Source of the DNA: Acidobacteriota bacterium
GTDB lineage: Bacteria > Acidobacteriota > Blastocatellia > Pyrinomonadales > Pyrinomonadaceae
Assembly (NCBI GenBank): GCA_019639135.1
Contig: JAHBSL010000015.1
Span: 1 to 64,000 of the forward strand
Length of the DNA stretch: 64,000 bases
Direction: 5' to 3'
The notes below the pieces were generated by a model. It saw only the letters and a list, made by a program, of their open reading frames with translations, did no database searches and had not been told where the DNA came from. Every line of letters begins with the position of its first letter. The stretch's first letter is position 1. Positions 37,806-53,517 of the stretch are shown here, piece by piece. A program made the translations under genes and the position numbers.

Positions 37806-37948
37806 GGAGTGCGGACACTCTTGTCCGCATCGCCGGTTCCTCCGGCGAGAAAAAACTGGCGTTTAGAGCTGCGAGGCTAAATTGAGCCCCCGAATCGCGA
37901 AGGCTCTTTCGTGCTTCGCACTCATGCGGACAGGAGTGTCCGCACTCC
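37806..37948. repeat. Palindromic element, copy A
   Basis: 143 bp with inverted ends: GGAGTGCGGACACTCTTGTC on the left and its imperfect complement (GACAGGAGTGTCCGCACTCC) on the right. Each end also folds by itself (GCGGACA with TGTCCGC), and a second hairpin (CGCCGG / CCGGCG) lies next to the left end. It sits between the FMO 5' remnant and the intact FMO gene. Copies C (40345-40487) and B (52727-52838) share both ends. A central TAAATTGAGC is shared with copy C. Confidence 0.88.
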
Positions 37949-39513: not shown

Positions 39514-40343
39514 CACTTCAGAAAAATAGCGTTGCTGTGGTGACCGGTGCCGGTTCGGGCATCGGGCGGGCGCTGGCCAAGCGGCTCGCGGCCGAGGGAA
39601 TTGCGGGACTTGCGATTGCCGACGTGAACCGCGAGGGGCTTGATGAAACCGCGGCGATGCTGGGCGATACAACGGTGTCTCAGCATGTTGTGGATGTTTC
39701 GGACCGCACGGCGATGCAGGCGTTTGTCGATGCGGTCATCAGCGAACACGGCCGCGTTACGCATGTGATCAACAATGCGGGCGTCGCGCTCGGCGGCACG
39801 TTGCGGGAGGTCACGCTCGATGAGATCGAGTGGCTGATGGGCGTAAATTTCTGGGGCGTGGTCCACGGGACAAAGCTCTTCCTGCCGCATCTGGAGAAAG
39901 AGCCGGAAGCACATATCGTCAATATCTCGAGCCTTTTCGGTCTGGTCGCCCCGCCCGGGCAGACGGCCTATTGCGCGAGCAAGTTTGCCGTCCGCGGGTT
40001 TACGGAAGCTCTGCGGCACGAGCTCGAAGGGATGAACATCGCCGTTTCATCGGTCCACCCCGGCGGCGTTCGGACAAACATCGCGAACAATGCCCGCATC
40101 GCTGCCAACACCGAGCACACTGCCGAGGAGATCGAGCGCCGGCTGAAACGAATAAACCGAAACCTCTCAACGACCACACCCGACCGAGCAGCCGAGATCA
40201 TCATCAAGGGCATCAAGAAACGCAGCCCGCGGATCATCGTCGGCCCCGACGCACAACTCCTAAGCTGGATACAACGCCTTTTCCCGAAACGCTACCTCGC
40301 CATAGCCAACGCCATCAGCGGCGGCAAGCTGAAGGAGACGTAG
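39510..40343 (+). CDS. Short-chain dehydrogenase/reductase
   Basis: A 277-residue SDR. The NAD(P) motif is VTGAGSGIGRA at residues about 11-21; the central NNAGVALGG, the catalytic Ser in IVNISSLFG and the Tyr-Lys in AYCASKFAVRGF are intact. The C-terminal basic extension (LLSWIQRLFPKRYLAIANAI) is typical of the SDR branch found next to FMO genes. The product probably works on the same substrate as the monooxygenase, e.g. reduction of a ketone or alcohol before oxygenation; this is inferred from the ATGA overlap. Repeat element C starts 2 bp after the stop codon. Confidence 0.93.
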   Translation: MTLQKNSVAVVTGAGSGIGRALAKRLAAEGIAGLAIADVNREGLDETAAMLGDTTVSQHVVDVSDRTAMQAFVDAVISEHGRVTHVINNAGVALGGTLREVTLDEIEWLMGVNFWGVVHGTKLFLPHLEKEPEAHIVNISSLFGLVAPPGQTAYCASKFAVRGFTEALRHELEGMNIAVSSVHPGGVRTNIANNARIAANTEHTAEEIERRLKRINRNLSTTTPDRAAEIIIKGIKKRSPRIIVGPDAQLLSWIQRLFPKRYLAIANAISGGKLKET

Positions 40344-40344
40344 T

Positions 40345-40487
40345 GGAGAGCGGACACTCCTGTCCGCATGAGTGCGAAGCACGAAGGCAGTTCCGAAAAT
40401 TTGGACACCTTAGTGAGACTGAACGGCTCAATTTAACACACCGTTTTCGCCGCACTGCGGCGATGCGGACAAGAGTGTCCGCGCTCC
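40345..40487. repeat. Palindromic element, copy C (reverse orientation)
   Basis: 143 bp with the same ends as copies A and B but inverted relative to them: GGAGAGCGGACACTCCTGTC at the left and GACAAGAGTGTCCGCGCTCC at the right. The inner left half contains GCATGAGTGCGAAGCACGAA, matching the right end of copy A. It fills most of the gap between the SDR and hldD genes. Confidence 0.88.
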
Positions 40488-40539: not shown

Positions 40540-41544
40540 ATGTCGAAGAGTAGGATCATCGTAACCGGTGGGGCGGGGTTCATTGGGAGTGCCGTTGTTT
40601 GGCGGCTGAGTGAACTGGGCGTTGACGATATTTTGGTCGCTGACCGGATGGATGAGACGGACAAGTGGAAGAACCTTGCGCCGCTCCGGTTTGCGGATTA
40701 CATTGATGCCGACGACTTTGCCGAAGAGCTGGACCTGCACACTGATGTCGCGTGCGTTTTCCACCTCGGGGCGTGTTCCTCAACGACCGAGACCGATGCG
40801 GACTATATGTTCCGCAACAACTTCGAATATACAAAGCTGCTGGCGATGTGGGCGGTGGCCCACGACACGCGGTTCATTTACGCCTCATCGGCCGCGACCT
40901 ACGGCGACGGCTCGGCCGGAATGGCGGATGGTTTCGAACAACTCGGGAACCTTCGGCCGCTGAATGTTTACGGCTACTCAAAGCATCTCTTCGATCAATG
41001 GGCGACGAGGAAAGGGCTCTTCGACAAGATCGTCGGCTTGAAATACTTCAACGTCTTTGGGCCGAATGAGGACCACAAGGGCGACATGCGGTCGCTTGTA
41101 AACAAGGCGTTCGATCAGATAAATTCGACGGGCAAGCTACAGCTTTTCAAGAGCGCAAACCCCGACTATGCCGATGGCGAGTTCGGCCGGGATTTTGTTT
41201 ATATCAAAGATGCGGTTGATATGACGCTGCATTTCTGGGATTCAGGAGCCCTTACCGACGTGCGGGCCTCTGGCAATCGCGGCGGGTTGTTCAATGTCGG
41301 CTCGGGGCGGATGAACACCTGGAACGCTCTTGCCGATGCGATCTTCAAGGCCCTCGATCTGCCGCGGAACGTCGAGTTCATCGAGATGCCCGAGCATCTC
41401 CGCGACCGCTATCAATATCACACCCAAGCTGATCTCACCCGCATCCGCGATTCCGGCTATACCGCGGAGACAACCCCGCTCGATTCGGCAGTCGCCGATT
41501 ATGTGAGAAACTATCTGGTTCCGGGCAAGCATCTCGGAGACTAG
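40540..41544 (+). CDS. hldD: ADP-L-glycero-D-manno-heptose 6-epimerase
   Basis: A 334-residue extended SDR that epimerises ADP-D-glycero- to ADP-L-glycero-D-manno-heptose for the LPS inner core. The NADP motif is VTGGAGFIGSAVVW. FHLGACSSTTETDADYMFRN and the active-site YGYSKHLFDQWA match HldD closely, with the later FGRDFVYIKDAV, and KYFNVFGPNEDHKGDM. Length is normal. It supports a Gram-negative envelope with heptosylated LPS. ribF starts 4 bp downstream, so the two are co-transcribed. Confidence 0.96.
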   Translation: MSKSRIIVTGGAGFIGSAVVWRLSELGVDDILVADRMDETDKWKNLAPLRFADYIDADDFAEELDLHTDVACVFHLGACSSTTETDADYMFRNNFEYTKLLAMWAVAHDTRFIYASSAATYGDGSAGMADGFEQLGNLRPLNVYGYSKHLFDQWATRKGLFDKIVGLKYFNVFGPNEDHKGDMRSLVNKAFDQINSTGKLQLFKSANPDYADGEFGRDFVYIKDAVDMTLHFWDSGALTDVRASGNRGGLFNVGSGRMNTWNALADAIFKALDLPRNVEFIEMPEHLRDRYQYHTQADLTRIRDSGYTAETTPLDSAVADYVRNYLVPGKHLGD

Positions 41545-46879: not shown

Positions 46880-47561
46880 CTCGCCGAGCGGAAAAGCTCC
46901 GCTTTTCCGACAGGCATTCTATACTTCTTTCGCGGCTATGCCGCCAATTTCTATGTTCATCATCTCTCGCAAAACGCCTGCGGTCTATATCACCGCCGTC
47001 ACCCATCACAGGCTTCCGATCTTCCGAACCGACCAACTCAAGCAGGTTCTCTGCCAGGCTTACGCCGAAGCTCGCACAGGCCACGGCATTTTGATCCTTG
47101 CCTACGTTATCATGACCGACCACGTTCATATGCTCGTGAGGTCTGACAAAACGATGAGTGACATACTAAGGTTGATGAACGGTATCTCGGCACGGCGGAT
47201 CATCCAGCACCTGACCGCCAACGGACACGAAAAGTCACTTTTCAAACTCCGCGGTTCTGTACGCGGACGTAACCACAAACATTCGGTTTGGCACCACCAC
47301 ACTGATTCGCTTGAGATATTCGGCGAATCGACGTTCCGCCAGAAGCTCGAATACATCCATCAGAATCCCGTGAGGGCAGGAATGGTCGAAAGGCCGCCGG
47401 ATTATCTTTACTCGAGCGCCAGGATTTGGGCGGGAAGTGAGATCAAGGAAGAACCGCTTCAAGTGGATCATCGTGTGATCCAATGGCGGCAGCACGTGGC
47501 GGCATAGCCGCAAATATTATAGGGCATCACACGGAAAAGCATAGCTTTTCCGCTCGGCGAG
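46880..47561. mobile_element. RAYT unit flanked by nested inverted hairpins
   Basis: The outer pair is a 30-bp inverted repeat (46880-46909 and 47532-47561; CTCGCCGAGCGGAAAAGC and its complement, with 2 mismatches in the loop), each copy folding into CGGAAAAGC / GCTTTTCCG. The inner pair is a perfect 14-bp inverted repeat (GCGGCTATGCCGCC at 46932-46945 and its complement at 47498-47511), again each self-complementary. The RAYT gene lies exactly inside the inner pair: its ATG and TAG are within the two hairpins. Confidence 0.85.
46938..47507 (+). CDS. REP-associated tyrosine transposase (RAYT)
   Basis: A 189-residue Y1 transposase of the IS200-like/RAYT group. The HUH metal motif is IMTDHVHMLVRS (His62, His64), and the nucleophile Tyr139 is in RQKLEYIHQNPVRAGMVERP. 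The N-terminal VYITAVTHHRLPIF and the C-terminal DYLYSSARIWAGSE are the family boundary motifs. RAYTs cut and move REP hairpins as single strands. Here the gene sits between two inverted hairpin pairs, which are probably its own REP substrates. The ATG at 46938 is inside the inner hairpin; a second ATG at 46953 is possible. Confidence 0.93.
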   Translation: MPPISMFIISRKTPAVYITAVTHHRLPIFRTDQLKQVLCQAYAEARTGHGILILAYVIMTDHVHMLVRSDKTMSDILRLMNGISARRIIQHLTANGHEKSLFKLRGSVRGRNHKHSVWHHHTDSLEIFGESTFRQKLEYIHQNPVRAGMVERPPDYLYSSARIWAGSEIKEEPLQVDHRVIQWRQHVAA

Positions 47562-51534: not shown

Positions 51535-53517
51535 TTATCCGAGAAATCTATCGCTCCAGAGCTGAAATACCAGCAGCGTCCAGAGTTCCTTGTGGTGCGA
51601 AGCTCGGCCGGTTTCGTGTTCGGTGATAAGACGTTGGACGTAGTGGGGGTTGAAGAGGCCCTGTTGCTTTAAACTTTCGAGTGCGAGCATGTCGTGCATT
51701 AGCGGATTGAGGCGGCCCTTTAGCCATTCGGCGATCGGGATGCCGAAGCCTTTTTTGGGGCGGTGGAGGATATCCTGCGGGAGCAGTTCACGCATCGCCT
51801 CTTTCAGGATCACTTTGCCGCTCTTGCCTTTTAGTTTGTACTCGACCGGGATCGACGCGGCGAATTGGCCGACGCGAGGATCGAGGAACGGTGCACGCGT
51901 CTCGAGCGAGACGGCCATTGCCGCACGGTCCACCTTGGTCAGGATGTCTTCAGCGAGATAGAAATTGATGTCCGCGTACTGCATCTGCTCGATGACGTTC
52001 TTCGCGTCCGAGCGGCCGACAATTTCGCGGACGCCGCGGTAAATGTCGGCGTCGGTCTGGGCGAGGACGTCTTTTGAGAAAAGCTCGTTGTGCTGGTCAA
52101 TCGAAAACGAGCCGAACCACGAATGATGCCGCGTGACGGCGTCGTAATTCGCCGCACGGACGAACCGCTTTGCCTTGTAATCGAACGACATATTCTTGGT
52201 CGAAACCGGCAATGCGTTAACGACCGGCTCGATCAATCCGCGGCGGAGGATCGAGGGAATCGCCAGGTAATTTGCCGCCACGGTGTGGGCGTAATACATC
52301 GGGTAGCCGGCGAAAAGCTCGTCTCCGCCATCGCCGCCGAGGGCGACCGTAACGTGCTTGCGGACAAAGCGTGCGAGGAGATAGGTCGGTATCAGCGAGC
52401 CGTCGGACATCGGCTCGTCGAGCCAGGTGCCGATCTCGCTGATCAGGTCGCCGGCGGTCGCGGCGGAGAGCTTGTCCTCGTAATGCTCGGTATTTAGGTG
52501 CCGGGCGACCTGCCTCGCATATTTCGATTCATCGAAGCTGTCTTCTTCGAAGCCGATCGAGAAAGTCTTAACGCGCTCGGTCGCGTGTTGAACGGAAAGA
52601 GCCGCGACGGTCGAAGAATCGATCCCGCCGGAGAGCAAAATGCCGAGCGGGACGTCAGAGACCAGCCGCATCCGAACGGCGTCGGAGAGCAGGTCGCGGA
52701 GTTCTTCTGCTTTCGCGCGTAGCGATGGAGCGCGGACACTCTTGTCCGCATCGCCGGTTCCTCCGGCGAAACTATCTCGGTCATTCGAGCTTGTTCGCGT
52801 CGAAGCGACGCTCATGCGGACAGGAGTGTCCGCGCTCCAATTTAAGTCCCAATAGCGGCGGGTTGTTGCCTCGCCGTTCTCGACCGTCAGGACGTGTGCC
52901 GCCGGAAGTTTTTGAATGCCTTTGAAGATCGACATCGGGGCCGGGACGTAGTCGAACGAGACGTAGTGGCGGAATGCATCGAGGTCGAGCTCGGGCTTGA
53001 CGGCGGGATGGGCGAGAATCGCTTTAAGCTCCGATGCCCAGATCAGCTTGTCCTCAAAAACGCCGTAATACAGCGGCTTTTCGCCAAAGCGGTCGCGGGC
53101 GATGATCAGCTTTTTCCGCCGCGAGTCCCAGAGCGAGAAGGCGTACATGCCGTTAACGTGTTCGAGCAGGGCGTCGCCGTGCTCTTCGTAAAGATGCGGC
53201 AGGATCTCGGTGTCAGATTTGGTCGTAAACTTGTGGCCTTTAGCTTCGAGCTCGGAGCGGACCTCGCGATAGTTGTAGAGCTCGCCGTTCATCATCACGA
53301 CGACCGAGCGGTCGCAATTGAAAACCGGCTGGTCGCCGGTGTGCAGATCGATGATCGAAAGCCGCCGCATTCCGAGCGCGACCGTGTCGTCAAGCCACAG
53401 CCCTTCGCTGTCCGGCCCGCGATGCACGATCCGCTCGCACATCGAGTGCAGCACCGCCTCGGCACCGTCGTTCGAATCAGATCGCTTTAGGTTTATCCAA
53501 CCGGTGATACCGCACAT
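51535..53517 (-). CDS. asnB: Asparagine synthase (glutamine-hydrolysing) with an in-frame repeat insertion
   Basis: A 660-residue enzyme. The class II glutaminase domain starts with Cys2 (MCGITGWINLKRSD) and has RGPDSEGLW, MNGELYNYREVR and HLYEEHGDALLEHVNGMYAF. The synthase domain carries the PP-loop LGILLSGGIDSSTVAALSVQ and ALGGDGGDELFAGYP. Between YWDLNW and RAKAEELRDLLSDAV about 38 residues (SADTPVRMSVASTRTSSNDR, DSFAGGTGDADKSVRAPS) are inserted; normal homologues lack them. The insert is encoded by palindromic element copy B, and the reading frame is kept. The site is the linker between the two domains, which may tolerate it. The enzyme makes asparagine or an amidated glycan or peptide precursor. 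Confidence 0.95.
   Translation of the reverse strand: MCGITGWINLKRSDSNDGAEAVLHSMCERIVHRGPDSEGLWLDDTVALGMRRLSIIDLHTGDQPVFNCDRSVVVMMNGELYNYREVRSELEAKGHKFTTKSDTEILPHLYEEHGDALLEHVNGMYAFSLWDSRRKKLIIARDRFGEKPLYYGVFEDKLIWASELKAILAHPAVKPELDLDAFRHYVSFDYVPAPMSIFKGIQKLPAAHVLTVENGEATTRRYWDLNWSADTPVRMSVASTRTSSNDRDSFAGGTGDADKSVRAPSLRAKAEELRDLLSDAVRMRLVSDVPLGILLSGGIDSSTVAALSVQHATERVKTFSIGFEEDSFDESKYARQVARHLNTEHYEDKLSAATAGDLISEIGTWLDEPMSDGSLIPTYLLARFVRKHVTVALGGDGGDELFAGYPMYYAHTVAANYLAIPSILRRGLIEPVVNALPVSTKNMSFDYKAKRFVRAANYDAVTRHHSWFGSFSIDQHNELFSKDVLAQTDADIYRGVREIVGRSDAKNVIEQMQYADINFYLAEDILTKVDRAAMAVSLETRAPFLDPRVGQFAASIPVEYKLKGKSGKVILKEAMRELLPQDILHRPKKGFGIPIAEWLKGRLNPLMHDMLALESLKQQGLFNPHYVQRLITEHETGRASHHKELWTLLVFQLWSDRFLG
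52727..52838. repeat. Palindromic element, copy B (in frame within asnB)
   Basis: 112 bp (114 with the conserved AT that precedes each copy, i.e. 38 codons). Ends: GGAGCGCGGACACTCTTGTC and GACAGGAGTGTCCGCGCTCC. The left 43 bp match copy A with a few differences, including the second hairpin (CGCCGGTTCCTCCGGCG). The middle is shorter than in A and C. No stop codon appears in the asnB frame. Confidence 0.9.

Follow-up and report, generated by a model that had tools for sequence, protein, structure and literature searches.

In-frame REPIN-like palindromes in enzymes of a Pyrinomonadaceae genus, and a probable cognate RAYT transposase embedded in frame in acetyl-CoA synthetase and PriA

REPINs are doublets in which two inverted REPs form a hairpin around a short, highly diverse spacer, and they are found in genomes that hold several RAYTs, each surrounded by matching REPs (Bertels & Rainey, PMC3116915; PMC8049555). 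The REPs of described REPINs are extragenic and bear a GTAG tag (PMC3116915; PMC8049555), the tags described for REPs being GTAG or GT[AG]G (PMC6006769, PMC8266576). RAYTs are held to be immobile, that is incapable of self-mobilisation, and occur as single copies, and their persistence is unexplained (PMC3116915). A census of the RAYT superfamily dropped RAYT proteins that were unusually long, taking them for fusions or misannotations (PMC6006769). Palindromes have also been described within genes. For example, intragenic GTAG and CGTC REPs or dimers in ORFs of several species add 20-30 or more residues, for which a seat in flexible loops has been suggested (Di Nocera et al., PMC3733652), and Rickettsia palindromic elements (RPEs), palindromes of ~100-150 bp, lie in frame in many housekeeping genes and are in some cases structurally tolerated, according to the account in PMC10969869 of Ogata et al. 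2000 and 2002. RPE/CGTC elements carry a CGTC tag and are without a transposase partner (PMC3733652). In-frame palindromes are therefore already known, as Rickettsia RPEs and as intragenic REPs. Inteins with homing endonucleases likewise place a nuclease ORF in frame in essential enzymes, at conserved sites and with a patchy distribution across species, while the byps of yeast mitochondria, mobile hairpins that occur in numerous protein genes and vary in the middle but not at the ends, are skipped by the ribosome.

The window analysed here is a 64,000-nucleotide stretch of an Acidobacteriota genome of the family Pyrinomonadaceae (contig JAHBSL010000015.1, positions 1 to 64,000), in which an asparagine synthase gene carries a palindromic element with the following parts.

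51535..53517, minus strand: host gene, AsnB-type glutamine amidotransferase/asparagine synthase of 660 aa (from the ORF listing, TIGR01536 and an alignment of 25 orthologues)
52727..52838, minus strand: in-frame REPIN-like doublet, GGAG...CTCC, 112 bp, encoding SADTPVRMSVASTRTSSNDRDSFAGGTGDADKSVRAP (from 26 genome copies, absence from most orthologues, and folding)
52816..52838, minus strand: REP-like hairpin at the gene-proximal (5') end, GGAG + C + GCGGACA-CTCC-TGTCCGC, the stem of which covaries between genomes
52795..52815, minus strand: inner hairpin H2 (GCGTC-GCTTC-GACGC), variable stem with compensatory changes among copies
52770..52794, minus strand: spacer of 25 bases, hypervariable between copies
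52750..52769, minus strand: inner hairpin H3 (TCGCCGGAGGAACCGGCGAT), nearly invariant
52727..52749, minus strand: inverted REP-like hairpin at the 3' end, GCGGACA-AGAG-TGTCCGC + G + CTCC

The asnB product matches NCBIfam TIGR01536 at 500 bits (cut-off 267) and reads, on the minus strand, ...YWDLN-W-SADTPVRMSVASTRTSSNDRDSFAGGTGDADKSVRAP-SLRAKAEELRDLL..., such that the stop-free insert, W-SADTPVRMSVASTRTSSNDRDSFAGGTGDADKSVRAP-S, adds 38 residues to the linker between the glutaminase and synthetase domains. An initial annotation of this DNA had placed a palindromic element in frame between the two domains, and its coordinates (52727-52838) proved exact, as did the length of the insert and its freedom from stops; it also described a unit of 114 bp with a conserved AT on the left, which is corrected here to 112 bp, the flanking bases differing from copy to copy. 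The peptides that the element is predicted to encode in AsnB are MSVASTR, TSSNDR and DSFAGGTGDADK. An AlphaFold model of the protein (mean pLDDT 83), a check that had been proposed with the annotation, assigns values below 50 to residues 231-262 and of ~30 to the insert, which lies between well-modelled domains, and so predicts a disordered stretch of interdomain linker. As single-stranded DNA, the element folds at -50.4 kcal/mol (shuffle mean -21.1; z -11), and none of 200 shuffles folded as well. The right arm of this and other copies has GGAGG and, eight bases on, ATG, which might serve as ribosome-binding site and start codon outside the host frame.

As in REPINs, the two inverted REP hairpins combine into one larger hairpin, and stem pairs covary both among copies and between genomes. 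Among copies, the H2 stem occurs as GCGTC/GACGC, GTGCC/GGCAC, ACGCC/GGCGT and GCGAC/GTCGC, while the REP stem changes genome by genome (GCGGACA/TGTCCGC, GGGGACA/TGTCCCC and GAGGACA/TGTCCTC). For example, G023 has 19 GGGGACA and 7 GAGGACA hairpins, as against one and none in the source genome, G000. The conserved tetranucleotide tag is GGAG, one base off the hairpin, rather than the GTAG (with GYRG variants) of REPs, and the CGTC tag of RPEs was absent from the element end. In eight copies of the 130-bp type in G000, the ends differ by 4-5% on average and the middle by 52%, and spacer identity of at least 0.85 was found only among orthologous insertions, with non-orthologous pairs never above 0.81. 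A search for target-site duplications found none, the flanking bases being unlike between copies, and relative to empty alleles a few host residues were replaced, rather than the element having been cleanly inserted. The window, locus L063 and the PriA locus L222 of G032 gave no Rfam match at gathering thresholds, and hence no known intron or RNA.

Searches of the 4.09-Mb source genome identified 26 loci, of which 22 lie in frame within 17 genes, asnB among them, and four lie outside genes.

C4:123386: non-genic copy, 96 bp
37806..37948 of the window (C7:37806), minus strand: second window copy, 143 bp, in the intergenic DNA just ahead of a flavin-monooxygenase-like ORF
40345..40487 of the window (C7:40345), plus strand: third window copy, 143 bp, intergenic and flanked by a short-chain dehydrogenase ORF that ends at 40343 and an epimerase ORF that starts at 40540
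C23:111667: non-genic copy, 123 bp

The element is thus not primarily a repeat of non-coding DNA, as had been thought, and the proposed search for further coding genes that hold it in frame was productive. This distribution departs from the extragenic location of REPINs and agrees with the in-frame residence of RPEs in unrelated genes. The hosts, whose names are readings of their sequences except where checked with Pfam or NCBIfam profiles, are tatD, an M14 peptidase, leuS, carB, a molybdopterin oxidoreductase, metH, asnB, acetyl-CoA synthetase (ACS; four ends or elements), alpha-2-macroglobulin (A2M; three), an AtuA-like gene (half an element), rtcB, an acyl-CoA synthetase/acyltransferase fusion, a GltD-like gene, porA, a GH92 gene, trmFO and thiC (half an element). 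The complete in-gene copies that use the main frame, 17 in all, have lengths of 97, 112, 127 or 130 bp. Every one of these lengths is 1 mod 3 (chance for all 17, (1/3)^17), which means that two more bases are supplied by the junction; the copies read via the other left-arm frame (M14 and carB) are 113 and 110 bp. In-gene copies of G000 share one orientation throughout, with a genus-wide bias of 37 to 7 in which orthologues are not independent, and the preferred frame is the hydrophilic SADxxVR...ADKSVR; as the ends are palindromic, an inverted element encodes the same end peptides. Across the genus, in-gene doublets were read in frame 2 in 43 cases and in frame 0 in eight, with no open case in frame 1 (a single call beside asnB of G010 had stops and was left out); these counts come from a codon-usage classifier that missed asnB itself, one flank of which fell just below threshold, and are therefore conservative, although orthologous sites are counted repeatedly. 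Both metH (C6) and thiC (C37) of G000 bear a further in-frame repeat peptide, QKPAREQGR or QRPAREQGL...GHAVTQ.

Across the 25 related asnB genes that were aligned, the same element occupies this spot in only one, that of G020, where it has another spacer. Elsewhere in the genus, the linkers of G019, G012 and G004 carry repeats of the SPPYEGGV...GRGG type, while those of G014 and G011 carry SEPGAVATG, that of G024 carries QKPAREQGR and other relatives have a bare linker. The same insert shared among homologous asnB genes would have marked an old, gene-specific feature; with G020 alone carrying the element here, that pattern was not seen, and the initial view of a mobile element is upheld. Other hosts present a similar picture, with empty alleles in five of six relatives for LeuRS, in G019, G020 and G012 for MetH, in six of six for A2M site 3, in G019, G009 and G014 for RtcB, and in G009, G011, G012 and G014 for CarB, while the loops of tatD, ACS, porA, gltD and GH92 hold different repeats in different species. 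That these loops are empty or carry unrelated repeats in relatives indicates mobile inserts gained in particular lineages. Some insertions are shared by descent, namely those in trmFO (G000, G019, G020 and G031), carB (G000, G019 and G031) and GH92 (G000, G004, G021 and G061). The same enzyme loops of relatives also carry another repeat family, likewise in frame, the hairpin ends of which are SPPYEGGVAAASADGVVL...ENHPPAEAVPLLRKEGS. In a GTDB scan with one genome per species, from which records near the source genome may be missing, the right end was found in Acidobacteriota assemblies only, several of them labelled Blastocatellia or Pyrinomonadaceae, and the left-end pattern did not occur in any of 23 genomes from the other families of this class.

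The origin of the variable spacers was also considered. Derivation of the spacer in place from the host loop was rejected, as ancestral loops (FEG in MetH, QGG in A2M) are shorter than the spacer, and equal rates of evolution of ends and spacers after insertion were likewise dropped, since between TrmFO of G000 and G020 (~dS 1) the element ends are unchanged while the spacer differs by 16%. Copies gained since G019 split from G000 (dS 0.4-0.7 for most hosts, 1.0 for ACS) have consensus ends, yet their spacers resemble none of the genome's other copies (best match 0.77), which simple copy-and-paste would not predict. Loss of the donors could account for this, as could exchange of the spacer during insertion.

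A transposase of the RAYT type lies between the same element ends. The source genome has 11 Y1_Tnp matches, one of which (C9:91310-91870) falls inside a 1007-aa ACS ORF, and Pfam places the RAYT in one ORF with AMP-binding or, in other genomes, PriA domains. Among 41 genomes of the genus, the 11 nearest relatives of this RAYT (55-73% identity) are all within host ORFs, while the rest show at most 49% identity and are mostly ORFs of 193-283 aa. Rather than free-standing genes, the RAYT-bearing host ORFs are 826-1064 aa long in ten of 11 cases, the other being cut by a contig end (361 aa). Nine species have the RAYT in ACS, at two sites (after SPTLIRSLAA in G000, G061, G023, G026 and G035; after VEFPxWF in G022, G003, G017 and G036), and two have it in PriA (G032 and G004). 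The MPNHxH (HUH) and YIxxxPV (Tyr) motifs are kept in all 11, the TnpA-REP structure PDB 4er8 matches the RAYT (E 1e-8), NCBIfam REP_Tyr_transpos scores 86 against a cut-off of 80 on the PriA host, and NF047646 is above cut-off in PriA and DUF1156 hosts. As with the REPs around described RAYTs, the flanking elements are the same as those found elsewhere, and their stems are genome-specific. A free-standing Y1_Tnp gene of another group (189 aa, 39 bits) also occurs in the window at 46938-47507, plus strand.

These in-frame RAYTs form one clade in the tree (93/98, 94% of bootstraps), within which the PriA pair is nested among ACS copies (99/97). The ACS of G032 has a different repeat at the RAYT site, and PriA of G061 has no RAYT-sized gap. 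Together with the nesting of the PriA pair, these states make a move of the RAYT from ACS to PriA, still in frame, the simplest reading. Between the PriA pair, the RAYT has a dN/dS of 0.04 at dS 2.1 (host 0.09-0.13), and in an ACS pair pN is 0.18 with saturated synonymous sites (pS 0.90), showing at the sequence level that the embedded RAYT is under purifying selection. An AlphaFold model of the ACS-RAYT fusion had a mean pLDDT of 40 and supports no structural inference. Elements beside the RAYT in PriA of G004 and G032 are oppositely oriented yet the frame is kept, the palindromic ends encoding the same peptide both ways. In G036 (C390), the ACS ORF passes from the N-terminal site into the RAYT and on directly to the C-terminal site, with the enzyme core missing, through either element recombination or misassembly. 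Beyond the genus, a RAYT in G050 and G054 lies in frame in a DUF1156 anti-phage-type methylase ORF (~1250 aa), flanked by GGGAGCGCGGGCGTCCCGCCCGC palindromes (peptide GARASRP) that are quite unlike the REP-like repeats of the genus, and in G045 (L382:2480-4576) a RAYT is fused in frame upstream of an aminotransferase-like ORF in a stretch that is partly masked (N). Judged from these ORFs, in-frame RAYTs are present in two other families of the class.

Taken together, we consider it likely that the elements are REPIN-like, non-autonomous palindromes that are probably mobilised by a RAYT, filtered by reading frame and translated within enzymes. Two REP-like hairpins, inverted around a free spacer, would constitute the element, and the RAYT, a Y1/HUH transposase, would most likely mobilise it as single-stranded hairpins, with an insertion step that is probably blind to the reading frame. 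Survivors in genes would then be those copies that restored the frame, were read in the hydrophilic frame and hit a permissive surface loop, where the translated peptide would stay in the enzyme as a disordered loop. We infer both that the insert is tolerated in this way, being kept in the mature enzyme rather than removed, and that the elements are mobilised by the in-frame RAYT. The latter would be the likely cognate transposase and itself an in-frame insert in ACS and PriA, such that its reading frame would be protected via selection on the host enzyme. Several observations count against this reading: element counts are only weakly higher in genomes with an in-frame RAYT (mean 6.5 versus 2.7, one-sided p 0.04, uncorrected for phylogeny), the ten other Y1_Tnp matches of G000 could mobilise the elements instead, the tag is not that of described REPs, and the spacers of recent copies are unmatched in the genome.

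If the insert were instead removed after transcription or translation, by splicing of the RNA or the protein or by ribosome bypass of the kind seen in phage T4 gene 60, insertion would be neutral anywhere, which would suit the very stable hairpin and the essential enzymes that have been hit, among them LeuRS, where an insert immediately precedes the KMSKS loop, and RtcB, with one beside the catalytic His region. However, removal would call for neither lengths of 1 mod 3 nor a frame free of stops nor a preference for one frame, all of which are observed, and precise removal would not restore the ancestral loops of MetH (FEG) or A2M (QGG), where, as is often the case, flanking residues are replaced. 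Unrelated repeats are also tolerated in the same loops of relatives, Rfam gave no intron and Pfam found no Hint/splicing (intein) domain in the ACS and PriA hosts of the RAYT, all of which render removal very unlikely. It is equally doubtful that the hydrophilic loop has been co-opted and is selected in each enzyme for regulation or interaction: the TrmFO copies common to G000, G019, G020 and G031 have mostly conserved acidic spacers, and their ends are identical between G000 and G020 even at ~dS 1, but 17 unrelated enzymes are involved and close relatives are mostly empty or have other repeats at these sites.

In-frame residence in many enzymes would also be expected of RPE-like selfish palindromes that are unrelated to RAYTs and spread by some other transposase, for which Rickettsia RPEs are a known precedent (PMC10969869). 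This is improbable here, as the CGTC tag is absent and, in 11 genomes, a RAYT lies between copies of the element whose genome-specific stems match around it. The likeness to Rickettsia palindromic elements suggested in the initial annotation is therefore supported for the way of working but not for kinship. An assembly or frame artefact might be suspected, since the genomes are metagenome assemblies and repeats are prone to misassembly, but the same insertions recur in independent assemblies (TrmFO in four species, CarB in three, GH92 in four and ACS-RAYT in five), their frames intact and their synonymous sites diverged, making an artefact extremely unlikely.

Beyond the REPIN-like reading of the elements themselves, we lean towards the view that this RAYT lineage has no free-standing gene and lives as an in-frame domain of housekeeping enzymes, namely ACS and, following a transfer, PriA, or a DUF1156 methylase in other families, and that its REPINs have been sieved for copies that can be translated. 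The host enzyme and its RAYT would then share one polypeptide, a frameshift or stop in the transposase would harm the enzyme too, and such an intein-like lifestyle without splicing would offer one answer to what saves RAYTs from loss. A literature search found no description of in-frame RAYTs or of a RAYT lineage inside housekeeping enzymes, subscription journals lying mostly outside its coverage, and such cases may have been filtered out by the superfamily census (PMC6006769). While REPs are extragenic by name, this REPIN-like population is mostly intragenic, inside many housekeeping enzymes of the genus, and the frames in which its copies are read reveal protein-level selection. The transposase that likely serves it sits in frame in housekeeping enzymes of 11 genomes of the genus and has apparently changed host gene. 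Two questions become testable as a result, namely the upkeep of a domesticated transposase and the tolerance and reuse of protein loops as landing sites for mobile DNA, for which many natural before/after alleles of highly conserved enzymes are on offer.

Compared with byps, the elements have similarly constant ends and a variable middle, but are constrained in length to keep the frame. The embedded RAYT resembles inteins in its residence, but has no splicing domain, is a single-strand transposase and appears to be retained in the protein; at 38 aa, the asnB insert is in any case too short for an intein. In-frame residence in housekeeping genes is shared with RPEs, whereas the phylum, the sequence, the GGAG tag and the flanked RAYT are different. 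Relative to previously described intragenic REPs, 22 of 26 copies are in genes, different repeat families occupy the same loops from one species to the next, and even the transposase lies in frame. The closest likeness in organisation is to REPIN/RAYT systems, with an inverted doublet, a diverse spacer, a RAYT between matching ends and several RAYTs per genome. However, as the tag proved not to be GTAG and the location of most copies not to be extragenic, the element is not classed as a canonical REPIN, nor is it an RPE: its copies are mostly intragenic and in frame, its tag is GGAG, and its likely RAYT is housed in host genes, apparently having passed from one to another.
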